A stretch of DNA of 64,000 nt from Microcaldota archaeon (GTDB taxonomy: Archaea > Micrarchaeota > Micrarchaeia > Micrarchaeales > Micrarchaeaceae), in the NCBI GenBank assembly GCA_021810105.1, contig JAJZJM010000004.1, forward strand, positions 62,001 through 126,000, read 5' to 3'. Below the pieces are notes generated by a model. The model was not told the origin of the DNA. It made no database searches and saw nothing but the letters and a program-made list of their open reading frames with translations. Made by a program: the position numbers and the translations under genes. Shown piece after piece: positions 6,910 to 58,225 of the stretch (position 1 is its first letter; the number at the start of each line of letters is the position of its first letter).

Positions 6910-7666
6910 TCCAGTTAATATAGGTGCGGCTGCTGCAATTTTTGAAGCACTCGCATGTCTTTCAATACTGTTGAGTCGCGTTGTATTCGGAGTAGTTTTA
7001 TTCTTTACAGGACTCGGACTGCTGATTTTTTATAGGCTGAGCAAGGACCCGCTGATAGAAAAACCAGACGTCCTTGGGTTTATCAATGCGCTGATAAAAG
7101 CATACGACACGCTTCCAATGCAAAAGGCATTGGATGAGGCGCTGGCATCTTCCCCAAAACTACAGAAAATTATATCTCCAATAATGCGTGCATATAAACT
7201 CGGAGATAGGCAAGCCGCATCCAAATTGGAAAAGCTTGACGGCTGGCTCGGAAACATCGGAATGATAATAAACAGGGCTTTGTTAAACGGAGAGGATGTG
7301 CACAGAGACCTTCTAGAGCTTCATATAGATATGCTGGAAGATAAAAAAAGCAATGCTAAAGCATATTCTCACGCAAAGAATGCAAGCTTAATGAGCATAC
7401 TAGGAATGACTGTCTTCATACCTGTTTTTTCAGGAATCAGCATAGGGATCTTAACATATGCCCCTGCGATTGGCAATATCTCAAGAATAAGTATATCCAG
7501 CATAACCTTGACTTTCTCTGCTTTTATAATTATAGAAGCTATTGCAAGATTCACATATTCAAACACGGGCGATAGAAAGTTTTCGCGTATAGTTACGCCG
7601 TTTTACTGCGCAACAGGGCTTTTGGTTTTAAGGATGGTTTCCTTCCTCGCGATTAATGCTATATAG
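6899..7666 (+). CDS. pilus membrane platform protein, T2SSF/TadC-like
   Basis: A 255-residue protein with the same plan as the gene before it: two N-terminal membrane segments (about 8-45), a cytoplasmic helical domain (60-155) containing an L-L-N-G-E-D-V motif, and C-terminal membrane segments (165-255). It overlaps the upstream gene by 11 bases. Together the two proteins probably form a heteromeric platform for the ATPase at 4784. The assignment rests on topology, size and position. Confidence 0.72.
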   Translation: MRISPVNIGAAAAIFEALACLSILLSRVVFGVVLFFTGLGLLIFYRLSKDPLIEKPDVLGFINALIKAYDTLPMQKALDEALASSPKLQKIISPIMRAYKLGDRQAASKLEKLDGWLGNIGMIINRALLNGEDVHRDLLELHIDMLEDKKSNAKAYSHAKNASLMSILGMTVFIPVFSGISIGILTYAPAIGNISRISISSITLTFSAFIIIEAIARFTYSNTGDRKFSRIVTPFYCATGLLVLRMVSFLAINAI

Positions 7667-7674
7667 TTGATAAG

Positions 7675-7917
7675 ATGGAACTAGAAATACCATATATAAA
7701 TGAGGTAAGGGCTCTACTTTTAATAGGGCGGGCAAAAGGGCAGGGTTCTATAGAATACATACTGATGCTCTCTGCGGTTAGCATCATAATTGTTGTGGCG
7801 CTCGCCATGATAATACAGCTCAAGGGTACCGCTCTGCATGCATTTTCAAGCGGCTCTAACCAGAGCATATCCACAGAGCTTGGGAAGGAGCTCACAAACC
7901 TTACAAATAGTACGTGA
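7675..7917 (+). CDS. type IV pilin-like protein, class III signal
   Basis: An 80-residue prepilin with a 21-residue leader, then G-Q-G-S-I-E-Y-I-L-M-L and a hydrophobic helix. Q-x-S-x-E-x-x-x-L is the class III signal of euryarchaeal and DPANN pilins, cut between G and Q by an EppA-type peptidase. The mature protein would be only about 58 residues, mostly the assembly helix, so it is a candidate major subunit. It starts eight bases after the upstream stop. No EppA-like peptidase is visible in the window. Confidence 0.85.
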   Translation: MELEIPYINEVRALLLIGRAKGQGSIEYILMLSAVSIIIVVALAMIIQLKGTALHAFSSGSNQSISTELGKELTNLTNST

Positions 7918-12541: not shown

Positions 12542-13036
12542 ATGATTGCTGACGCTGCGAATGACTATGAAATCGCTTATAATGTTGCGCCTGCTGCAGA
12601 ATTCCCTTATCCTTATGGGCAAGAAGACGCTTTGAGGTTTATTGAAAATGCAAAGGCTGGCGAATCTTTTGGTGCAGAGCTTCATTTTGGCATACATTTG
12701 AGCAATAGCAATGAACTCGTAGGCGCGGCTGCGATATTCAATATAGACAAGGAAAGCAGGACGTGCAAGATAGGTTATTGGCTTGGAAGGGAGCATTGGG
12801 GAAGGGGTTATGCTAGGGAGGCTCTAATATCATTGATAGAATTTGCATTCAGGAAGGTTGGCGTCGATAAGGTATATGCCGACGTTTTCAACTTCAATTT
12901 AAGATCTATTAACCTGCTTGCAGGGCTTGGATTCAGGGAGAATCCAATGTATAGATCGATTGTAAGCCATTATGGAGGGTATGCTGAAGAGCTAAGGTAT
13001 GAACTATCTTTTGACGGAAGGCAAAATGCAGATTAG
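12542..13036 (+). CDS. GNAT acetyltransferase, RimJ/RimL-like
   Basis: A 164-residue N-acetyltransferase with the acetyl-CoA-binding stretch around G-Y-W-L-G-R-E-H-W-G-R-G-Y-A-R-E-A and the C-terminal N-x-R-S-I-N-L-L-A-G-L-G-F. RimJ/RimL relatives acetylate protein N-termini or small molecules. The frame stays open upstream and encodes N-V-Y-L-S-S-I-S-E-D-D-A-D before this ATG, which fits the missing first strand of the fold. The real start is therefore probably upstream at a non-standard codon (for example ATT 12467). Confidence 0.78.
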   Translation: MIADAANDYEIAYNVAPAAEFPYPYGQEDALRFIENAKAGESFGAELHFGIHLSNSNELVGAAAIFNIDKESRTCKIGYWLGREHWGRGYAREALISLIEFAFRKVGVDKVYADVFNFNLRSINLLAGLGFRENPMYRSIVSHYGGYAEELRYELSFDGRQNAD

Positions 13037-26845: not shown

Positions 26846-27037
26846 ATGAAACTTTGTTATTTTGGACCGTGTCGTTTGAAGCGAGGACATAGGGGTTATT
26901 GTAAGAATTATAAAGGAGAGGTGATATGGGTGAGAAAGTGCATATCAGAGAAGACAATACGACCATTAGAATTGGCAACAGTATATGAGATAGCCTGGAA
27001 AGAGAGATCCATGACGCAAAAAGAAGGTTATGGATAG
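26846..27037 (+). CDS. small Cys/His protein overlapping a PLD gene
   Basis: A 63-residue frame with a good ribosome binding site (AGGTGAT) before ATG 26846. The first 30 residues contain C4, C9, H15, C19 and C30, which could bind zinc. The last 35 residues are merely the other-frame reading of the PLD gene that begins at 26926, so the protein may have been extended by loss of an earlier stop. Confidence 0.45.
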   Translation: MKLCYFGPCRLKRGHRGYCKNYKGEVIWVRKCISEKTIRPLELATVYEIAWKERSMTQKEGYG

Positions 27038-27498
27038 TCTCACCATGGATATCTGAGCGCTATGCCCTTCTTCTGGCTAAGAAATGTGATAATGGAGTAG
27101 ATGTTAGACTCATTACCACTAATGACTATACTAATAGAGGCCATGCCAGAGCCTTAAGAGCGATTTCACAGCGCAAGGATCATCTAATATCATTAGCTTT
27201 GGTAAGCACTGGCTTTGCTATCTTATTCAGAGAACCGTTAGGAATGCTTGTTGCAATTGTTCTAGTAGTAGTGCATTTTCTTCCTAAGCGCGATAATGCA
27301 AAGGTTAGGCTTACTATCAAGGACAAAGTAGCAAACCTCGTACACAGCAAAATCTACGTTGTAGATTCAAAGGCAATGATAAGCTATGCAAATTTAACTT
27401 ATTCTGGTATGAAGAAGAATTATGAAACATTAGTTATCTTTGAAAAAGAATCAGTAGTAGAAAGCATTGCTAAGACTTATGAAGAATTAGAAAGATAG
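26926..27498 (+). pseudogene. PLD-superfamily protein broken by an in-frame TGA
   Basis: A strong GGAGAGGTGAT ribosome binding site precedes ATG 26926. The frame encodes 20 residues, hits TGA at 26986-26988 and then continues open to 27498. After the stop come L-W-I-V-S-P-W-I-S (first strand of a PLD domain), a hydrophobic segment (about 27196-27288), then H-S-K-I-Y-V-V-D and S-Y-A-N-L-T-Y-S-G, the HKD motif and its serine. It resembles phosphatidyl-transfer or nuclease proteins with one HKD motif. A shortened product could start at TTG 27199, but it would lack the first half. Confidence 0.75.
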
Positions 27499-27522
27499 TT
27501 TTAGAATTTCTATGAAAGTATT
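27499..27522 (+). repeat. 24-bp upstream repeat, copy 1
   Basis: TTTTAGAATTTC, then TATGAAAGTATT. It begins one base after the PLD stop. It is near-identical to 27924-27947 and 28499-28522. Confidence 0.75.
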
Positions 27523-27532
27523 GGATGAGCGA

Positions 27533-27901
27533 ATGGTTAATCAAATTAATATGAATAGAAAGGACGTTGTACTATTAGGCACTGCATCGCGCCAAACTGC
27601 AATAACATTACAGGGAGAAAGCATTGGAAACAGCGCAAGCGAACTTCGCAGAAGCTACGATGCCCTATTAAGAGAGGGGATGATATGCGATCAACTACAT
27701 GATGGCGGAGACCACCCAAAAGTAGAGGGTACAGTTACTTTCCATCAAACAGAACTGGGAGAAGTGGTTATGGCTGCTTTTCTCATAGAGCAACCGATGG
27801 CGAAAGCTGTGAATGGCGAATTAGTCCCAATGTTTATAACATTGACAATTGTTGACGCTGATAATAATAGCGAGACCGAACATATTATAGACATGAAATA
27901 G
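27533..27901 (+). CDS. hypothetical protein after repeat copy 1
   Basis: A 122-residue soluble protein with an N-terminal helical half (L-R-R-S-Y-D-A-L-L-R-E-G-M resembles a winged-helix recognition region) and a beta-rich C-terminal half. No family is recognised. ATG 27512 lies inside the 24-bp repeat, and that ATG is not used in the other two copies, so ATG 27533 is preferred. Confidence 0.5.
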   Translation: MVNQINMNRKDVVLLGTASRQTAITLQGESIGNSASELRRSYDALLREGMICDQLHDGGDHPKVEGTVTFHQTELGEVVMAAFLIEQPMAKAVNGELVPMFITLTIVDADNNSETEHIIDMK

Positions 27902-27923
27902 CCTGGCATGAGAAAGCATAATC

Positions 27924-27947
27924 TTTTAGAATTTCCATGAAAGTGTT
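27924..27947 (+). repeat. 24-bp upstream repeat, copy 2
   Basis: TTTTAGAATTTC, then CATGAAAGTGTT. It is 22 bases after the previous stop and 17 bases before the acetyltransferase ATG. The ATG inside it leads to a stop after 11 codons. Confidence 0.8.
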
Positions 27948-27964
27948 ATGTAGGCATAGAGTTT

Positions 27965-28486
27965 ATGTATAAGATCAGAAAACTTAAACGAAGCGACTTC
28001 ACAGCTTATTGTGAAAACGAGGTATCGTATTACAAGGAGCTGAGGGAAAACCCTGCTTTTGGAACCGGAACTTATGGCAAGAAGATCAAAAAGAGAGACA
28101 TGCGAGTTGCCTTCACAAAACTTTACAAGGCAGCTGCAGCGCATAACGCCGTTGTGGTTGTTGCGGAAAATGAAGCAGGCAAAATGGTAGGGATTGGTGA
28201 ATTGAATGGGCACGCCTGGGTAGAGGCACCGCACATTGCAGATATGGGGATTTCCTTGATAAAAGGATATCGTGGCATGGGAATAGGCACAGCAATGGCC
28301 AAACGGCTTCTAAAGATGGCGAAGGGTAAATACGAGATAATTACTGCCGGAACATTTTCTCGTAATACTGCATCAAAGCGGCTACTGAAGAGGCTCGGCT
28401 TCAGGAGATGGGGCCTTGGCTCAAAGTTTGTCAAGCGAGGGAAACTGTATATGGACAGCGAGTTATTTTACCTAAGACTTAAGTGA
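27965..28486 (+). CDS. GNAT acetyltransferase
   Basis: A 173-residue protein with the GNAT core G-Y-R-G-M-G-I-G-T-A-M-A (acetyl-CoA pyrophosphate loop) and N-T-A-S-K-R-L-L-K-R-L-G-F. The substrate is unknown. It is the second of three genes preceded by the same repeat. Confidence 0.88.
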   Translation: MYKIRKLKRSDFTAYCENEVSYYKELRENPAFGTGTYGKKIKKRDMRVAFTKLYKAAAAHNAVVVVAENEAGKMVGIGELNGHAWVEAPHIADMGISLIKGYRGMGIGTAMAKRLLKMAKGKYEIITAGTFSRNTASKRLLKRLGFRRWGLGSKFVKRGKLYMDSELFYLRLK

Positions 28487-28498
28487 AGAGTGAAAGAC

Positions 28499-28522
28499 TT
28501 TTAGAATTTCCATGAAAGTGTT
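28499..28522 (+). repeat. 24-bp upstream repeat, copy 3
   Basis: Identical to copy 2 over 24 bases, with ACTTT just before and AAAGT within the right end as short inverted arms. It lies 12 bases after the acetyltransferase stop and five bases before ATG 28528. Confidence 0.8.
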
Positions 28523-28527
28523 AGCAT

Positions 28528-29052
28528 ATGGAATTAGAATCATTTGAAGTATTAATAGAAATGCCAAAAGATGAGGCTAGGAGGATTCATCTAGATTATT
28601 CGAGAACTTATTATATCGACTTAGGACCTATCAAAAATGTAATTCCTATTAATGAAGGCAAAATGCCGATTGCTTATGGATTCGTTATTGGCACATTAAT
28701 AAAAGATGAAGAAGAGGAATCTGAGCTTGATGCTATTGTATATTCAGAAAAAGAATATAAAATTGGTGATAGAGTAAACGCATATCCCGTAGCCTTAATA
28801 CACATAAAAAACGGAGATCATAAAATAGTTTTTGTTGATGACAGTACCAAAGGAAAACTATGGAACAACATTCCAAGTGGTGAAAGAGACACTATCTTGA
28901 AATACTTTGGTTATAAATCACCAATTGAAAGTGTTGGAGATAGAGATGATGGATTTAACTTGATAAAGAAGAGCCTCACTGATAAAGCATTACCTATACC
29001 AAGAGAAGCTATAGTTCGTAAACAAAATAATATGGAGGATAGAAACCCTTAG
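28528..29052 (+). CDS. divergent inorganic pyrophosphatase-like protein
   Basis: A 174-residue protein. It follows the soluble class I pyrophosphatase plan: E-V-L-I-E-M-P-K at the N-terminus, Y-G-F-V-I-G-T-L-I-K-D at about residues 51-61, L-D-A-I-V at about 70, K-I-G-D-R-V, then D-H-K-I-V-F-V-D. The family's D-G-D-P-L-D loop is E-E-S-E-L-D here, and the D-E-G-x-D-x-K stretch is reduced, so several metal-binding aspartates are missing. It is probably not a housekeeping pyrophosphatase and may act on another phosphoanhydride. It sits in an accessory region behind repeat copy 3. Confidence 0.6.
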   Translation: MELESFEVLIEMPKDEARRIHLDYSRTYYIDLGPIKNVIPINEGKMPIAYGFVIGTLIKDEEEESELDAIVYSEKEYKIGDRVNAYPVALIHIKNGDHKIVFVDDSTKGKLWNNIPSGERDTILKYFGYKSPIESVGDRDDGFNLIKKSLTDKALPIPREAIVRKQNNMEDRNP

Positions 29053-29483
29053 CCACCAAAATGGAATTTTTGGTTTTGCATGTTAACTTTATAGCATTCC
29101 ACCATAATGAAACAAAAATGCAATCTCAAAAACCTACTTACTCCACTAAAATGGAAAAGGCCAGGTTTTGGTGAACCCATCGGGCTTGTTGACAAAAAGA
29201 GGTTTTAAAAACAGAATTTCTTAATGAGGCATTATTTTAGCTCATACTTATGGAATAAGAAAGGCAATTTATCAAAATCATGAAAGCATCTCTTAAATAG
29301 GCTCTGTTCCGGTAATATCTGGGTTGTCGTCGAGAAAAATATGGTCTAAATTGCGCTATACAGCAAGATAATTTCCTTTTAGGTGATTTATACAGCTATG
29401 ATAATATTGCAGCACATTGCAAAATAAAGCGAAACTAAAATTAATTTAGTATTACTATAATAATTTTGGTATTTAGAGAGTTT
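29053..29483. other. non-coding stretch, no gene recognised
   Basis: 431 bases without a convincing frame. A short minus-strand reading around 29290-29345 (D-D-N-P-D-I-T-G-T-E-P) has a protein-like look and could be the decayed end of a gene, but no family can be assigned. Confidence 0.4.
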
Positions 29484-29870
29484 TTACTTTCTTACAAGTC
29501 TTGTCACTTCTGCCTTTACTTCAGGTATACCTAGCAAATGTGCTGTACAGACTCTTCTATTACCATCTTCAGATACATAGTACTCATCACCTATCTGAAC
29601 TAATTCGATCGGAGACCTTGTATCATGAAAAATTTCTACTTTTTCATATGCTCCAGATATTACGCGTAAAAATCTACTGTCAATTCCATTGCGTGTGGGA
29701 GTCCAGTTGTCTGAATAAAGATTATCTTTAAGTTTACTTGTTCCTACAATCGCCCAAGTTGGTACAGTTCTATTTCCTAAATGCTCCTGATGAAATTTCC
29801 TATACCAATCTGGATATCTGTCTTCTAATGTAGGGATCTTTCCAACATTTTCAGTTCTGCCAATTTCCAT
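29484..29870 (-). CDS. ParB/sulfiredoxin-like domain protein
   Basis: A 128-residue protein. The C-terminal half reads I-E-L-V-Q-I-G-D-E-Y-Y-V-S-E-D-G-N-R-R-V and then A-H-L-L-G-I-P-E-V-K-A-E-V, the D-G-x-R-R-x-x-A-A-x-x-L-G pattern of ParB N-terminal/sulfiredoxin-like domains, which bind nucleotides. The N-terminal half is not recognised. TTAGAGGAT just before the ATG is a plausible ribosome binding site. It stands alone in an accessory region. Confidence 0.6.
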   Translation of the reverse strand: MEIGRTENVGKIPTLEDRYPDWYRKFHQEHLGNRTVPTWAIVGTSKLKDNLYSDNWTPTRNGIDSRFLRVISGAYEKVEIFHDTRSPIELVQIGDEYYVSEDGNRRVCTAHLLGIPEVKAEVTRLVRK

Positions 29871-30062
29871 ATCCTCTAATTAATTTACTTTTTTCAGATA
29901 CTTATACTTTGCTTTCTGCCGGTCATATAAACAGTTCTTTTCAACTAAAAAGGCTTGGCATATGTTGTACAGTTACCAAACCTTCCTGGGTTAAATTAGC
30001 TAAATTAAAAAGAAGGATAAGATTTAATTAGAATTTCTAAAAGAATTATGCAAATACTCATT

Positions 30063-30482: not shown

Positions 30483-30618
30483 AAAACTCACGGCAGTATT
30501 TTTTATTTTCCATAGATTTGTACTTTCATGCATTCAAGAGGCCATGCTTTGCTTTATTCTGAAATTTGCACTTTACTAAAATAATTATAGAAAAGATAAT
30601 ATTATTTTAGTATTTATT

Positions 30619-34201: not shown

Positions 34202-34519
34202 TCATCTTGAACCACCAAATATAGTTCCTGATTCACAGACGGCTGCCTCCTGTAATTGAGGTCTTACAGCGTCTCCAGAGGCGTTACTTCCCGCAAGTCC
34301 TGCGGTAGTCAAGATATTTATTGAGGCATTCAAATCTCTGTCTATTCTCATCCCGCAATTTTGGCAGAGATATGTCCTTTCACCCAATCCTATATCCTGT
34401 ATGTTTCCACATCGAAGGTTGTAGAGTTGTTTCGAGAGATACATCTGACGGTTGAGTGTTGATTTCTGCAGCTGCGAAGGATACGCCCTGTATTTGTACG
34501 TCTTTTTCAAGATGAACAT
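34202..34519 (-). pseudogene. tnpB: TnpB with central in-frame deletion
   Basis: 105 codons. Residues 1-42 match the start of TnpB (F-I-L-K-K-T-Y-K-Y-R-A-Y-P). The frame then jumps to the C-terminal zinc finger (Y-L-C-Q-N-C-G) and the last RuvC segment (D-R-D-L-N-A-S-I-N-I-L). Most of the roughly 400-residue nuclease, including the other RuvC acidic residues and the first CxxC, is missing, so it cannot cut DNA. The reading frame has nevertheless stayed open across the deletion. Confidence 0.85.
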
Positions 34520-51075: not shown

Positions 51076-53381
51076 GCTCTAACCGGTTTGTGTATATGCT
51101 TTGAATGCGCCTTAGACGCTTTCCATCCGTATACTCCTATTGAAACGGTGGCACCAAGCGCAATTAGGGAGATTGCCCATGATATCCATGCATATGTCTG
51201 CAGTGTATAATAGAGTGTAATGGTATAGTTGCCGGTCTTGTTCATGTACCATGCATTGGCAAATCCGTTGACTTGAATGTGGCGGCTTTGGTTTATTTCC
51301 GTGCCGTTAGAGTAAAAGGCAGCCCAGTGTGGGTCATAAGTTTCACGGAAGACAAGATAGTAAGGCGTTGTGGCATTGGTGATATGGGCCGTAACTTTTG
51401 TAGGAGAGTTCTGAACAAATAATACGTGCGGCTGCTTAAAATTAGATATTCCAGTAGGGTTTATCTTGTTAGTGTTGTTGAACAGACCTATGTTTTGTGC
51501 GCTGCATACCACCGTGTCTTGTATATTAAATGTTTCATTGCCAATAATGTTTAACAATCCCTTGTAAGATGCATTTTCAGAATTATCTATATTACTTGCA
51601 TAGACAAGCGGTACGTAATTCAAATTCTGATATAGTGCAGTTGTATTAAAATATTTGAGAAATGCAATATTTGATGTAGAATTTAGGTTTTTGTATATAG
51701 CATTAAAACTAAATATAGAAGGTACACATCCTCCACATTGAGAGTATTCAACTGCGTCGCCTTGAACGATTATATACTTTATTCCAAACACCCCTAAAAG
51801 ATTAGAGATGTTCGGCAAACTAGAAGCGTTTGTATCGATTATTTGGCTAATAATGTGATACTCTGAATCAGATGTGGGAAAGAAAAATTCGCTGTATCCG
51901 CTAAAACCACCTGTGTAAGTCGGTCTATTAATAAGTAAAGAATATACATTTACACCTACGTACCAATTAGTAAATTGCCATCCGGATATAAGAGGCAAGG
52001 TTGCAATAGAGTAATTGCCATGTTTATTATTTATAAAGTTAGACAGGTTAGACACATATGGCGGAATGCTTTGTACGTTAAAAAGCTTCTCAGACTGCGT
52101 AGGTTGCCCGTAATATTGCATATATGGCATGTATACAAATTGGTACAGATACGCACCTATCAGAATCAAAACAGACATTAGGAATAAGTACATATAGGTC
52201 TTTTTTTTATTCTGCAGTTGCTTATAAATAACAAAAATAGCCATTCCAAATAAAACAAAAATAAGAAATGTGAAAACGGGCTTGAGTGCGGATGGATATC
52301 TTAGGGACAGAAGCAAATTAAAACGGCCTAAAATAAATGAGAATGCTGGGCCAAACGGCTTATTTATTGTTGCCGAAAGGAAAAGCGTGATTATATATTC
52401 GGTCCACATCCCTACAAAAAGCACTTTTAAAATTTTATTTTTGTAGTTGATTACAATTACGGTTCCGATGATGGAAATTAATAGAAATAGAAGACCGATT
52501 AAGGACTGCGCCCAATTCATTGGGTATATGACAAAGCCGGTCAGTGACTGAATTATATTGAGTGTGGATGTTGCTAATATGGAATATGATACAGAGTTAA
52601 ATATAGAGTTAGTAAGCCCATCTCTATATAAAGAAAGAAAAGTCGAAACTACCATGGGTAAGCTTATGAGAATTGCCGCCAGAAATGCATAAAAGTAGTA
52701 CCTAAATTTGAGATACTTATTGGCACCGGAGAAAATTGTAAGGAAAACGAATAGAATTACAACAAAGATTCCAGTCTGAATTACGTCGCCAAAACCAAAA
52801 AGAATCGCAAGGGACAAAAAAAGAGCCAGAAGAGAAGTATATAAATAGAGTGGCCGCGCCTGTTTATTTCCATTGCTTAAAGAAGTTGCATTTATTGCAA
52901 TTTTATAAGAAAAAAATACAATATATGGTAAAAATACCATAGAGGTTTCAAGAGTCAAGTCTCCTAAACTCAAACCAAAATTTAAAATAAATAAAATTGA
53001 AATTATAAAAAATAGTGATTTTAGAATCAATGATCTCTGTTTTTTAAATAGCTCATTGAGCAAAATAAATAGGCCAAACGCACCAAACCACCCCAATAGT
53101 GAATAATATAAAAGAAAGGCAAACTTAATTCCTAAAACAGAATAAATAAAGGATATAAATAAATAAAAAATAAGTAATGGTGCACTATAAATCTCATTAA
53201 TGATACCAGAATAGATTAAAGGATTCCACATGAAGAAGCCCAGTTTGAAAATGGATCCAACCGTATATACCGGAATGCCTTGATCCCCTCCAAAGGAATA
53301 ACTAAAGTTAAAAAATATAGAAAAGCTTAGAATAACCACGAGAAAGAGGAGAACGCCAAAGCCAATTACTGGATGGTCCAT
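51072..53381 (-). CDS. large membrane glycosyltransferase-like protein (YfhO-like)
   Basis: A 769-residue protein with about 12 membrane helices (1-405), an extracellular domain (410-735) and a last helix. Near the end L-V-F-R-E-T-Y-D-P-H-W-A-A-F resembles the conserved C-terminal strand of YfhO-type GT-C membrane proteins, which add sugars from lipid carriers to surface polymers. The position at the edge of a glycan cluster fits. No catalytic residues can be named. Confidence 0.6.
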   Translation of the reverse strand: MDHPVIGFGVLLFLVVILSFSIFFNFSYSFGGDQGIPVYTVGSIFKLGFFMWNPLIYSGIINEIYSAPLLIFYLFISFIYSVLGIKFAFLLYYSLLGWFGAFGLFILLNELFKKQRSLILKSLFFIISILFILNFGLSLGDLTLETSMVFLPYIVFFSYKIAINATSLSNGNKQARPLYLYTSLLALFLSLAILFGFGDVIQTGIFVVILFVFLTIFSGANKYLKFRYYFYAFLAAILISLPMVVSTFLSLYRDGLTNSIFNSVSYSILATSTLNIIQSLTGFVIYPMNWAQSLIGLLFLLISIIGTVIVINYKNKILKVLFVGMWTEYIITLFLSATINKPFGPAFSFILGRFNLLLSLRYPSALKPVFTFLIFVLFGMAIFVIYKQLQNKKKTYMYLFLMSVLILIGAYLYQFVYMPYMQYYGQPTQSEKLFNVQSIPPYVSNLSNFINNKHGNYSIATLPLISGWQFTNWYVGVNVYSLLINRPTYTGGFSGYSEFFFPTSDSEYHIISQIIDTNASSLPNISNLLGVFGIKYIIVQGDAVEYSQCGGCVPSIFSFNAIYKNLNSTSNIAFLKYFNTTALYQNLNYVPLVYASNIDNSENASYKGLLNIIGNETFNIQDTVVCSAQNIGLFNNTNKINPTGISNFKQPHVLFVQNSPTKVTAHITNATTPYYLVFRETYDPHWAAFYSNGTEINQSRHIQVNGFANAWYMNKTGNYTITLYYTLQTYAWISWAISLIALGATVSIGVYGWKASKAHSKHIHKPVRA

Positions 53382-53729
53382 AATATGTTTTACTATCGAA
53401 ATAGAAATAATCTCACTTTTTATTGCAGGATTGCATAGTATACTTAAGGAATTAAATTCTTAAAAACTCTCCCTCTGAATGCGGATCAAACTGCCTAAAA
53501 GCAGGGCCCTCTCTCTTTCTACAGCAAAACCTGTCGATATTCTGCAAGGTATATAAAATAGTGGTGTATACAGACCCGAATAAATAAAGTTACAATCAAT
53601 ATCTACTCATGTTTGATTGCATATGTCCTCAAATATGGATGACGGGTGTGTAATGATGAAATGATTAGGAATTCCAGAAAGGTGATGAAACGATACTAAT
53701 ATAAAATTCAATTCCCTATTAATTATATA
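53382..53729. other. AT-rich non-coding gap
   Basis: 348 bases with no gene-like frame. The divergence in base composition starts here and continues to about 58.2 kb. Confidence 0.5.
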
Positions 53730-54593
53730 TTATGAATAATTAAAAAGGTATGAGTCACAGGCAATTAAATTTGGATTATACCTAGATAGTTTATTTTTAC
53801 GAGTTATTTTGTATCTATAAAAAGGACTATTGTATATTTTTCTAGTTAAATTTAAAAGTAGGTAGTGTTTGTATATAAAATTTATTGGCCATGAAGAAAC
53901 TGTGCCTTTGTTTTCTTTGTTCCATAAATGAACATAATCTGATTGTTGAATGTCATTATGAAAAAATTTACCAGTCTTGCGAACTGTTCTCACATATACA
54001 TTTATTTCATCTTTAGAATAGAGAGTTATCCGCTTGCCATTTTCAGGTTTAATAACTTTATAAAAACTATAGTTAGATTGGGATACTTTAGCTAAAAACA
54101 CTTCTGTATCTTTGTAACCATTTTTACTTGAATAAAGAGAAAAAAATAATTCTGGTGATATTTGATAAAATCCATGACCACATAAATTATTTGTAGGCAA
54201 TATGTGAATTATTTGCCCACCAGGCTTGCACAGATGCGATACATTTTCCAAAGCTTGGGCAATATCATATATGTGCTCTAAACTACCGCTATCTATAACA
54301 GTATCATACTTTTCTTTCACATTATCCGGTATTGGCATATTCATATCATGAATTATTGTTGCCTTTTCGTAATTACTTTTATCTATAGAATTAACAATAG
54401 TAGAATGAAAATAATCCTTTAGTAGTGATTCTGCGTATATTTCTTTCTTATATTGCATATTTGTTGGGATAGTCCTTTTTAAAGAACCTTCAGTTATGTT
54501 TAGGTTTTGCCTCCCTATTGTGATAGTTTTTTTGAAATGAGAATGTTTATGCGCATAACACAAAAACTTTAATATTTGTGCATCGATCCCCAT
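53730..54593 (-). CDS. class I SAM-dependent methyltransferase-like protein
   Basis: A 287-residue protein. Residues 95-155 contain D-T-V-I-D-S-G-S-L-E-H-I, then L-C-K-P-G-G-Q-I-I-H-I-L-P, which is motifs IV-VI of methyltransferase type 11/12 proteins (L-x-P-G-G). Motif I is not clear in the N-terminal part. It probably methylates a sugar or is part of glycan decoration. Strongly AT-rich codons. Confidence 0.7.
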   Translation of the reverse strand: MGIDAQILKFLCYAHKHSHFKKTITIGRQNLNITEGSLKRTIPTNMQYKKEIYAESLLKDYFHSTIVNSIDKSNYEKATIIHDMNMPIPDNVKEKYDTVIDSGSLEHIYDIAQALENVSHLCKPGGQIIHILPTNNLCGHGFYQISPELFFSLYSSKNGYKDTEVFLAKVSQSNYSFYKVIKPENGKRITLYSKDEINVYVRTVRKTGKFFHNDIQQSDYVHLWNKENKGTVSSWPINFIYKHYLLLNLTRKIYNSPFYRYKITRKNKLSRYNPNLIACDSYLFNYS

Positions 54594-54818
54594 AAAATCA
54601 TTTAAATAATATATTAGCTCTTAATCTAAGCAATTTTAGAAGTTTAGTTCTCGTATATAATCTCAACATCAAGTTTTAAATACATTGTTAGGCCCATTAT
54701 TAAAGCTTCTTCTAAATTAGTATAAAGTTAAATTTTCAGCTAGTTTTATTACCACTTTCTAAATCAGTTATTTGTATTAAAAGGAGCATATTTAAGGTTT
54801 AGGTCTTCTATATTTCAT

Positions 54819-55739
54819 ATGAAATTACAATTACATGCTAAGGTAGTTAACTTCATTCCATACATTATGGCATTAAAAAACTGGCCAAAAGCAGTAATGT
54901 TTAGATATGGTCTTCTTAAATCCGTGCTATTAAAATTCAGGAGTGGTATGACATACTATGTGAATCAGAACAATAAGTTTGCAGGTTTACAATTAGTACT
55001 TTTTGCAGGAAAACATGGTGTCCATTTAGATAATAAAAGAAAAGATAAATATACTTGGATTTTAAATGAAAAAAGGCAGATAATTAAATTGCCGAATGAT
55101 ATGAGATTTTACCTTTGTGGGTTTGATAGCGACATAATGGCGGAAACATTTATTTATGATATACATTTTGTTGATTTTGACCTCAGAGATAAGATTATAA
55201 TAGAAGGCGGTGCATATATAGGAGATACTGCATTATATTATGCGGATAAAGGTGCCATAGTTTATTCTTTTGAACCGGATAAAACAAATTATAATGCATT
55301 TATTAAAAATCTTAAATTAAATCAAAAATTAGCAAAAAGAATTACTGCATCTAATTTAGCGCTAGGTAAAGAGGGTGTTGTAGAATTCCCAGAAAATTTT
55401 TGGGGAGGGGGATCGACATTTTCTAGTACAAAAAAAACACAGAAAATACAGTCTGTTAGTTTATCTACGATATTAAAACGCCATAACATAAAAAAACCCT
55501 ATCTGTTGCATTTGGATATTAAAGGTGGAGAATTTGAAATAATAAAATCCAGAGATTTATCGTTATTTGATAGATGCCGCATTGAGTATACTACGAATTA
55601 TGAAGGTAAATATATTGGTAATGTTGATAAATTAATAAATGAATTAAAGAAAAAAGGATTTAACAATATACGAATTTTTAAGCATAATTACGGATTTTAT
55701 AGTTTAAACGAGCACGGAACTATAGATGCTTGTAAATAA
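54819..55739 (+). CDS. FkbM-family methyltransferase
   Basis: A 306-residue protein. I-I-I-E-G-G-A-Y-I-G-D-T-A (about 127-139) is SAM motif I, V-Y-S-F-E-P-D-K (about 148-155) is motif II, and L-L-H-L-D-I-K-G-G-E-F-E-I-I (about 228-241) is the FkbM signature D-x-x-G-x-E. FkbM enzymes O-methylate sugars and other small groups. AAAGGAG lies upstream but 35 bases off, so translation may be leaderless. Part of the AT-rich segment. Confidence 0.85.
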   Translation: MKLQLHAKVVNFIPYIMALKNWPKAVMFRYGLLKSVLLKFRSGMTYYVNQNNKFAGLQLVLFAGKHGVHLDNKRKDKYTWILNEKRQIIKLPNDMRFYLCGFDSDIMAETFIYDIHFVDFDLRDKIIIEGGAYIGDTALYYADKGAIVYSFEPDKTNYNAFIKNLKLNQKLAKRITASNLALGKEGVVEFPENFWGGGSTFSSTKKTQKIQSVSLSTILKRHNIKKPYLLHLDIKGGEFEIIKSRDLSLFDRCRIEYTTNYEGKYIGNVDKLINELKKKGFNNIRIFKHNYGFYSLNEHGTIDACK

Positions 55740-55768
55740 GAATATTTAAAGTATGAATTTGTGGTTAA

Positions 55769-56848
55769 ATGAAAGTAGGAATTATAGCAAGAAGAGGTAA
55801 TTTTAAATTATCTTCAAAGCTTACAGGATTGTGGGGATATAGCGTACAACGCTATATCTCTATTTTATGCGATAAGCTAATTAAAAACTCAGATAATTAT
55901 TTTTCAGTAGAAAAGATAGAGCTTGGAAAAGGGTCATCAACACTTAGTCGAAGGACAACATTATTTTTTGATCTTACATTTTATAATATGCGTAACTTTA
56001 ATATTTTGCATGCACCAACCCCTTTACCTATTAAACCAGTAAGAATTGGGGTAGATACAAAAGTGATTACCACAAGCCATGGGATGCACTCGGTAGACCG
56101 AGATGGTGCCTGCTACAATATAGAAAGAGAAAATCAACGCATTATAGACAAAATACTTGGGCATTTTGGTGAGCACGGGACCTTAAATTCAGATTACATA
56201 ATTGCGGTGTCCTCATTAACAAAAAAACGCGCAGTAGATTTGGGTTTTAGTTCAAAAAAAGTATTTGTTGTGAATATTGGAATTGATGATAAATTTATTA
56301 ATACTCCAAAAACGATTAGCAAAGTAAACAAAAATTTTGTTGTAGGTTATCTTGGGCCAATGTATAAAAGAAAAAATGTTATATTTGCGATAGATGCATT
56401 CAAAAAAATTAAAGATCAAGAGATTAGATTTAATGTTTGGGGCAAAAAAGCTTACGATTATCCTAATTTAATAAAAGCAAGAGGAGGTGATAAAAGGATT
56501 AGTTTTATGGGCATTGCACCTGAGCACTCTTTAGTTAGTACATACGATACCTTTGATGTATTTGTTTATCCTACACTTTGCGACCAATTTCCAGCATCTT
56601 TACTTGAAGCACAATCTAGAGGCATACCAGTAATAACATTTAAGCACGGAGAGATATCAAATGAGGCTCGAAAGTACTGTATTGAAGCTGAAGATGAATA
56701 TGATATGGCTAGAATTATAGAAAAAATAATGAGAAATGGTTATAGTAATAAAATAAGGCTTGATGCCATGAAATACGCTCGAAGCTTTACCGCAAATAAG
56801 TTAGCACTAGAAACTATGAAAGTTTATAAAAAGGTTTATAATAGTTAA
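55769..56848 (+). CDS. glycosyltransferase family 4
   Basis: A 359-residue protein with GT-B architecture. The C-terminal donor domain has V-G-Y-L-G-P-M-Y-K-R-K-N (about 190-201), F-M-G and the D-V-F-V-Y-P-T-L region leading to the P-x-S-L-L-E-A-Q-S-R-G-I-P-V-I motif. An unusual feature is the N-terminal W-G-Y-S-V-Q-R-Y region. It follows the FkbM gene by 29 bases and likely builds the same glycan. Confidence 0.85.
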   Translation: MKVGIIARRGNFKLSSKLTGLWGYSVQRYISILCDKLIKNSDNYFSVEKIELGKGSSTLSRRTTLFFDLTFYNMRNFNILHAPTPLPIKPVRIGVDTKVITTSHGMHSVDRDGACYNIERENQRIIDKILGHFGEHGTLNSDYIIAVSSLTKKRAVDLGFSSKKVFVVNIGIDDKFINTPKTISKVNKNFVVGYLGPMYKRKNVIFAIDAFKKIKDQEIRFNVWGKKAYDYPNLIKARGGDKRISFMGIAPEHSLVSTYDTFDVFVYPTLCDQFPASLLEAQSRGIPVITFKHGEISNEARKYCIEAEDEYDMARIIEKIMRNGYSNKIRLDAMKYARSFTANKLALETMKVYKKVYNS

Positions 56849-57088
56849 ATCTTTCTTAAATGCTATACAACAGTTTCTAAATAAAATTAATTCATATTAA
56901 TGATATTATCTAGCTATAATTTTTAAAGTCTTAAATTAATCGAATAAATTTTAAAAAATTAATCTGTAAAGTTTTTAGGATTAATTTTATTATCTAATTT
57001 CTTTCTTAATGTATATAAATATTTTTTAATTACTTTCTAGATGCGAAATTAATAGTTTTACTAAGCTTTTCCTAATTAGGGGTTGTGT

Positions 57089-58225
57089 TTATTTTTTAAA
57101 CATTTCAAATATTTTAAGTAGAATTACTTTTTTATCAAAATTCTTTATGGCAATTCTCCTATTATTCATTCTACATTTATCAAATAGATATTTGTCATTT
57201 GTTTTTTTAGAAGCGAGTGATAATAATATTGCAATATAACTCCATTTGCCCCCATTTTCTGATATTGTAGCATTTGCTCTGAGGTCTTTTAAATCCTTCC
57301 ATGCGGCATTCTTTTTGCTAGTTACAATGTATAAACCACTCGCAAGTCCTTCCAGCATCACTTTTGGGAATACCTCAAACGCAGGTATCAGCAATACATC
57401 TACTTCAGTAAGCTTCTTATTCTTCTCATTATCGCTTAATATTCCTAAAAAATGTATATTTTTTAATGCTGTAAACTGCTTCCTATGTTCAGTTGGTATA
57501 TCACCAATAAAATAAAATTCGAATTTATCAATTTCCCCTTTAATATTAAGTTCTTTAATTATATCCAAGACAGTTAGTGCGTCTTTTTCCATGCCACCTA
57601 TATGCAATATTCTTAGTCTATTTGACTTATTATGCGCAAGGTAAAAACTTTTAGCTTCAATCATTGGAGGTATGCAAAACACGTTTTGCCTCTTGAAATT
57701 GAAAACCTTAATCATGTAATTAGCTTGCTCTCTATTTAATGCGTGGCAGTATAGATTATCCATATTAGTATCGTTTATACGTATTAAAGCACGGATAATT
57801 GAGTTAAGTGTTGCTTCTAATATACGATGTCCATATACAAGCTGGCCCATTTTCAAGTGCATGCTATGGCAGCCAATTACGTATTTTTGATTTTTTGGTC
57901 GCATCAAAATATTAATTATGTAGTCGTACACGCTATATGGAAAGTATATTATACCACTTTTAGGCAGATTGCGATAGATGGTTAGATGCCAGCTGAATGG
58001 CAGCAGATATTTTTGGCATGATATTATAGATTTTGGTATCATTTTGTACCTTGCTTTAATGTATTTATAGTTAGATACCGCTTGCCGGTAACTATTATTT
58101 TCTGTAATTAATATCTCAGTATCTACTCCTGATTCATGCAAAAATTTGGCATACTCATACACATGCCATTCAGTTCCTCTGTAACTGTATTTTATGTCTA
58201 CAGGTGTTATAAGCGAAACCTTCAA
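57089..58225 (-). CDS. glycosyltransferase family 4 (GT-B)
   Basis: A 378-residue protein. The N-terminus (M-K-V-S-L-I-T-P-V) and the Y-R-G-T-E-W-H-V-Y-E-Y-A region fit the acceptor domain. L-R-I-L-H-I-G-G-M-E-K-D and V-D-V-L-L-I-P-A-F-E-V-F-P-K-V-M-L-E-G-L-A-S-G fit the GT4 donor domain with its E-x7-E motif. The gap 56849-57088 upstream of its end is AT-rich and empty. It lies four bases after the GT2 gene on the same strand. Confidence 0.85.
   Translation of the reverse strand: MKVSLITPVDIKYSYRGTEWHVYEYAKFLHESGVDTEILITENNSYRQAVSNYKYIKARYKMIPKSIISCQKYLLPFSWHLTIYRNLPKSGIIYFPYSVYDYIINILMRPKNQKYVIGCHSMHLKMGQLVYGHRILEATLNSIIRALIRINDTNMDNLYCHALNREQANYMIKVFNFKRQNVFCIPPMIEAKSFYLAHNKSNRLRILHIGGMEKDALTVLDIIKELNIKGEIDKFEFYFIGDIPTEHRKQFTALKNIHFLGILSDNEKNKKLTEVDVLLIPAFEVFPKVMLEGLASGLYIVTSKKNAAWKDLKDLRANATISENGGKWSYIAILLSLASKKTNDKYLFDKCRMNNRRIAIKNFDKKVILLKIFEMFKK

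Follow-up and report, generated by a model that had tools for sequence, protein, structure and literature searches.

Repeats bounding probable gene cassettes on either side of a conserved single-copy DNA element in the chromosomes of Micrarchaeota

The window analysed here is a 64,000-nucleotide stretch of contig JAJZJM010000004.1 from a Micrarchaeota archaeon. It contains a 24-bp element, TTTTAGAATTTCYATGAAAGTRTT, on the + strand at 27499-27522, 27924-27947 and 28499-28522, with zero mismatches to the degenerate pattern, and none appeared in 100 dinucleotide-shuffled versions of the window, even at 3 allowed mismatches. The repeat that an earlier note on this DNA had reported at 27499, 27924 and 28499 is therefore real. 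The three genes that follow the copies had been described there as unrelated, and Pfam agreed, returning no match for the first, a GNAT acetyltransferase for the second and the inorganic pyrophosphatase family for the third. The spacing given there, with a stop codon just before each element and the next gene 5-17 bases on, was nearly right, but the distances are slightly different. Element 1 lies directly 3' of a TAG (27496-27498) and carries an internal in-frame ATG at 27512, the next in-frame ATG being at 27533; element 2 begins 22 bases past the preceding stop and ends 17 bases ahead of the ATG at 27965; and element 3 begins 12 bases past a stop and ends 5 bases ahead of the ATG at 28528. 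Beyond the third gene lie a stretch of conserved non-coding DNA, which we call the hub, and a second series of sites and genes on the opposite strand. The features of the locus are as follows.

27001..27498, + strand: PLD-like gene upstream of copy 1 (Pfam PLDc_2, E 1.3e-15), its stop abutting the element
27499..27522, + strand: element copy 1 (putative cassette boundary), exact pattern, weight matrix 46.1 bits
27533..27901, + strand: candidate cassette gene 1, no Pfam match; the ORF may start at 27512, inside the element
27924..27947, + strand: element copy 2, pattern matched, weight matrix 37.7 bits
27965..28486, + strand: candidate cassette gene 2, GNAT acetyltransferase (Pfam), common to the window and genomes G005 and G008
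28499..28522, + strand: element copy 3, pattern matched, weight matrix 41.7 bits
28528..29052, + strand: candidate cassette gene 3, pyrophosphatase-family protein (Pfam PF00719, E 3.1e-7), absent from G008
about 29053..29430, no strand assigned: hub, a conserved non-coding stretch that separates the two arrays; its left end repeats an ATGGAA motif about every 45 bp
29112..29261, no strand assigned: hub core, 150 bp, gap-free alignment in 17 genomes, single copy in nearly all bearers
29433..29471, - strand: right-hand site 1, palindromic, four TTAG-type half-sites, first after the hub
29484..29870, - strand: right-array gene, conserved in G008 (cluster 26)
30015..30053, - strand: right-hand site 2, weaker, 20.7 bits
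30063..30533, - strand: right-array gene, no Pfam match
30574..30612, - strand: right-hand site 3, 20.8 bits
30619..31284, - strand: conserved flanking gene (cluster 5)

At about 34 bp, the conserved unit exceeds the 24-mer; it consists of an AAA-tag plus TTTTAGAATTTCYATGAAAGTRTTRG. Its architecture is an imperfect dyad, TTAG-N5-CTAT with an outer TTRG half-site. The whole 821-kb genome, in which the earlier note had proposed counting every copy, holds exactly three copies of the 24-mer; all are at this locus and no further ones lie elsewhere. A fourth, TTTTAGAT-like version that had been placed before a HAD gene (about 26530) did not hold up as a copy of the element, since the two have only TTTTAGA in common and the weight matrix, which was built from 43 copies, does not score it above 10 bits. 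An upstream ORF beginning MKVL was rejected as a leader peptide because the frame after the internal ATG differs between element copies. The PLD-like gene that precedes element 1 has possibly decayed or suffered a frameshift; its region, 26846-27498, is an open frame without a 5' ATG (first start TTG 27199) and overlaps another ORF.

Across 257 billion bases of named genomes, a 20-base version of the element was found in ten stretches, six of them from Candidatus Micrarchaeota; the relatives with named records are metagenome-assembled genomes. Within the same family, a search for the 24-mer with at most 3 mismatches recovered 43 copies in 21 of 85 genomes, against one match for the reversed-pattern control, and the weight matrix gave 70 matches on 22 loci against 0 with the reversed matrix. 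The element-bearing genomes carry 1-6 copies each, and the copies of one genome are grouped at essentially one locus and on one strand, with few exceptions (in G024 they lie on two contigs). G081 has six copies within 4 kb, and G063, G064, G080 and G094 have three each. In these left arrays the elements separate short same-direction genes, whose products include low-molecular-weight phosphatase, deaminase, NUDIX, alpha/beta hydrolase, kinase, GNAT acetyltransferase, HAD and glyoxalase-like proteins and the toxin-antitoxin pair VapBC; these names were read from the sequences, Pfam having been run for the window's own proteins alone. No site is recognisable between some neighbouring cassettes at locus L026. 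Most left arrays lead up to the hub.

The content of the arrays varies between relatives. Genome G008, at the same locus, has the acetyltransferase cassette alone between shared flanks where the window has two more cassettes; cassette gene 1, like gene 3, is missing from its matching region. The orthologous acetyltransferase genes of G005 and G008 are preceded by the same element as copy 2. On the right side G008 has one gene more than the window. Between genera the order varies as well: loci L066 and L026 have the hydrolase, phosphatase, cluster 39, NUDIX and deaminase genes in common, in a different order. One block of homology between these loci, at L066 4086-4592, extends from element to element, and another block shared between genera (L066 4566, L027 12376) begins exactly at an element. 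The cassettes have 80-90% DNA identity between genera, compared with about 71% for orc1 in those genera, which points to transfer between lineages; on this sequence comparison, cassettes have likely been transferred between genera. Two near-identities may reflect either recent transfer or mis-binning: a 124-residue stretch (L028 15218-15916, and L072) is identical between G024 and G094, which are assigned to different genera, and G024 and G093 have a transporter with 96% identity.

We then asked to which neighbouring gene the element belongs. Among 49 elements, 30 lie within -30 to +20 of a same-strand upstream stop, compared with 7.7% of random positions, and the 3' end of the upstream coding sequence extends into the element in kinase and NUDIX cassettes. 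Left flanks were more alike when the upstream gene was of the same family in another genus (0.59 versus 0.43, p=0.0004), and right flanks showed no link with the family of the downstream gene (p=0.10); the pairs in both tests are not independent. The location of the element at the 3' end of the upstream gene, together with the co-variation of the left flank, indicates that this gene carries the site along as its tail, much as in integrons with attC. Element score dropped with distance from the hub (rho -0.36, p=0.009 pooled; within loci p=0.06), as would be expected if new cassettes entered next to the hub and older sites decayed.

These observations bear on the reading that the earlier note had favoured, in which the element is a promoter or operator, the core promoter of each following gene, making one regulon. 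The element does lie 26-46 bp ahead of many start codons. It would have to be a special promoter, since TTTAGA occurs between -30 and -20 in 1 of 148 ordinary upstream regions; as an ordinary promoter consensus the element was rejected, because the motifs of those 148 other regions are TTTAAAT-type boxes at about -40 and, at the start site, GGTG. A regulon of this kind is however weakened by the confinement of all copies to one locus, by L029 and L071, where the hub comes next after an intact copy and no gene is called in the interval, and by flanks that follow the upstream gene and not the downstream one, with the element reaching into upstream coding sequence. Element-to-start distances are also not fixed (13-127 bp), and right-array sites lie about 10 to 145 bp from gene starts. 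We therefore regard a shared promoter as improbable as the main explanation, while it is quite possible, given the many starts 26-46 bp downstream, that the element doubles as a promoter.

The shuffled order, the element-bounded homology and the upstream-linked flank instead argue for mobile gene cassettes rather than a shared promoter regulon, and the repeats are probably the boundary sites of an exchangeable gene-cassette array. A cassette boundary was the other reading that had been offered for the repeat, and the evidence favours it: copies lie at gene boundaries, array content and order vary between relatives, and the comparison of intervening genes that had been suggested found them to differ.

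Past the hub a second array runs in the opposite direction, with related 37-39-bp palindromes that carry four TTAG-type half-sites (for example ACCTAACATAATATTAGATATTCTAATAATTAGTTAGGT). A matrix of these right-hand sites found no match above 12 bits in the readable parts of 240 kb sampled elsewhere on the chromosome of one relative. The first right-hand site lies at about +340 to +404 from the start of the hub core in most relatives. The hub of the order's second family also has such palindromes on its flanks, the first right-hand site usually falling at +340 to +404.

The hub is apparently a previously undescribed single-copy chromosomal DNA element. Of the order's 164 genomes, a sequence model detected it in 87, nearly always as one copy, and among the 51 good ones in 40; matches in a second order of the class were weak. 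Coding potential was rejected, as the hub has no codon periodicity and has stops in all frames, and so was a structured RNA, with 4 pairs, none of them showing a compensatory change, and no Rfam match at gathering score. The left end of the hub in the window (29053-29156) holds three copies of CCACYAAAATGGAA spaced 46 and 44 bp apart, and similarly spaced TTCC-N8-GGAA-type repeats occur in relatives, a pattern suggestive of protein-binding sites in a phased array. Exceptions to the single copy were seen at L249 (G014:C21), where two inverted hub copies lie 5 kb apart (7636-7783 on the + strand and 12714-12857 on the - strand), and in G024 and G073, which have two hubs each on different contigs, at least some of them near contig ends.

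Such conservation could also mean that the locus is primarily a cis-acting complex of the chromosome with the hub at its centre, be it a replication terminus or fork trap, a centromere or an origin, with a protein bound to the hub and the flanking sites, and with genes that vary since the region tolerates insertions. The nearly always single-copy, ungapped hub, conserved across the order and weakly in a second one, speaks for such a complex, as do palindromic sites at a nearly fixed offset in two families. The position of the hub fits as well: in five single-contig genomes it lies on the far side of the chromosome from orc1, at fractions of 0.335, 0.372, 0.390, 0.420 and 0.444 of its length. 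A peak of cumulative skew coincides with the hub in G043 (GC) and G016 (AT), and skew is unclear in G015, G027 and G093, the profile of the last having gaps of all N at C1:500000-512000 (L090) and 950000-962000 (L099). GC skew was thus set aside as an arbiter between origin and terminus, being not clear in three of the five genomes, and we suggest with low confidence that the hub has a role near the replication terminus. A cis-acting complex alone leaves unexplained the single site between each two genes, the site-bounded shuffling between genera and the upstream-linked flank, and we consider it rather unlikely as the whole account of the locus.

Cassette arrays around a conserved chromosomal hub are well supported, both as anatomy and as evolution. 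At the level of sequence, comparison of the genomes documents the arrays, their restriction to one locus, the conserved hub, the turnover of cassettes, their shuffled order and the joining of the site to the 3' end of the upstream gene. In the mechanism we propose, a cassette would consist of one gene or a short gene pair with one site of about 34 bp; the arrays on both sides of the single-copy hub run toward it. Recombination within the sites, carried out by a putative protein acting in trans, would add, remove and reorder cassettes; insertion would be favoured near the hub, and the element may additionally serve the following gene as a promoter. On these patterns, site-specific recombination at the elements is likely.

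Candidate enzymes for such recombination were sought among known recombinases. The window's own genome encodes four PF00589 (tyrosine recombinase) proteins, on contigs C2, C3 and C4, and the array lies on C5. No PF00589 match was found in 6 of 16 relatives checked, including the single-contig genomes G093 and G016, and a tyrosine recombinase was rejected as universal driver on this ground; other genomes do have members of integrase type. The tyrosine recombinases of the relatives form two families, at least one of which, as we partly infer, reads in from tRNA-like sequence, as tRNA-integrating elements do. A serine recombinase was also rejected as driver, being present in one and absent from 13 of 14 genomes. 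A viral or plasmid origin of the locus was set aside, with no exact match in viral contigs and no similar DNA in phages or plasmids.

Among the systems that come closest are integrons, including those of archaea (PMC9668308), which also have tandem single-gene cassettes in one orientation, each gene with one site. They too carry accessory enzymes and toxin-antitoxin genes, exchange cassettes between genera and have a fixed chromosomal platform. Unlike integrons, the arrays here have no adjoining intI, their sites of about 34-39 bp lack the attC fold (no significant attC-like single-strand fold was found for the three elements on both strands, z -1.7 to +0.6), the genes run toward the platform, and a second array lies on the platform's other side. 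The label integron-type given in the earlier note is thus apt as an analogy, but membership among integrons is not borne out, with neither an adjacent integrase nor an attC-like fold. The main text of the archaeal integron survey (PMC9668308) does not mention Micrarchaeota, and a 2025 paper on gene transfer in Micrarchaeota makes no mention of cassettes or integrons.

Likeness also exists to Xer/dif systems. In the dif modules of Acinetobacter, pdif sites occur as pairs in inverse orientation, whereas here the sites on one side of the hub share one orientation (strand). Short dyad sites bound the gene modules in both cases; those of Acinetobacter, which often carry toxin-antitoxin pairs, are shuffled between replicons, and their arrays form islands (PMC12907356, PMC6449649, PMC13141974). 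The sites described here are on Micrarchaeota chromosomes and not recognisably dif, and no XerA-type gene was identified. Archaeal XerA acts with dif, an inverted-repeat site with conserved AT-rich flanks that is thought to lie near the terminus and is mostly a single 11-6-11 site per chromosome (PMC2958812), unlike the many four-half-site elements (TTAG-N5-CTAA plus outer half-sites) and the 150-bp ungapped core seen here. That the array is nonetheless of a known type, integron or Xer/dif module, with an integrase that was lost or escaped notice in the draft genome, would agree with the layout, the type of cassette content and the four PF00589 proteins elsewhere in the genome; the foldless sites, the uniform site orientation, the tRNA-integrating character suggested for at least one recombinase family and the several genomes without a tyrosine recombinase make this very improbable. 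The cassette arrays may, more tentatively, represent a DPANN gene-capture system of a new kind, with two convergent arrays, a dedicated single-copy element probably at the replication terminus, boundaries of about 34-39 bp with four half-sites, and a recombinase unrelated to integron and Xer enzymes.

Micrarchaeota are reduced, mostly host-dependent archaea, and how they acquire genes is under debate. With a fixed platform on which small accessory genes are gathered and reshuffled, they would have a concrete route of acquisition; the platform would also be a ready place to read the history of acquisition. The hub itself is a deeply conserved single-copy DNA element, its lineage has a poorly known chromosome cycle, and what the hub does can be tested directly. 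Outside the arrays, the window holds at 34202-34519 (- strand) a fragment that by eye resembles the C-terminal part of an IS200/IS605-type TnpB protein. The GC content of 52000-58000 is about 0.29-0.32, compared with about 0.40-0.45 around it, and this low-GC stretch is possibly a further acquired region.
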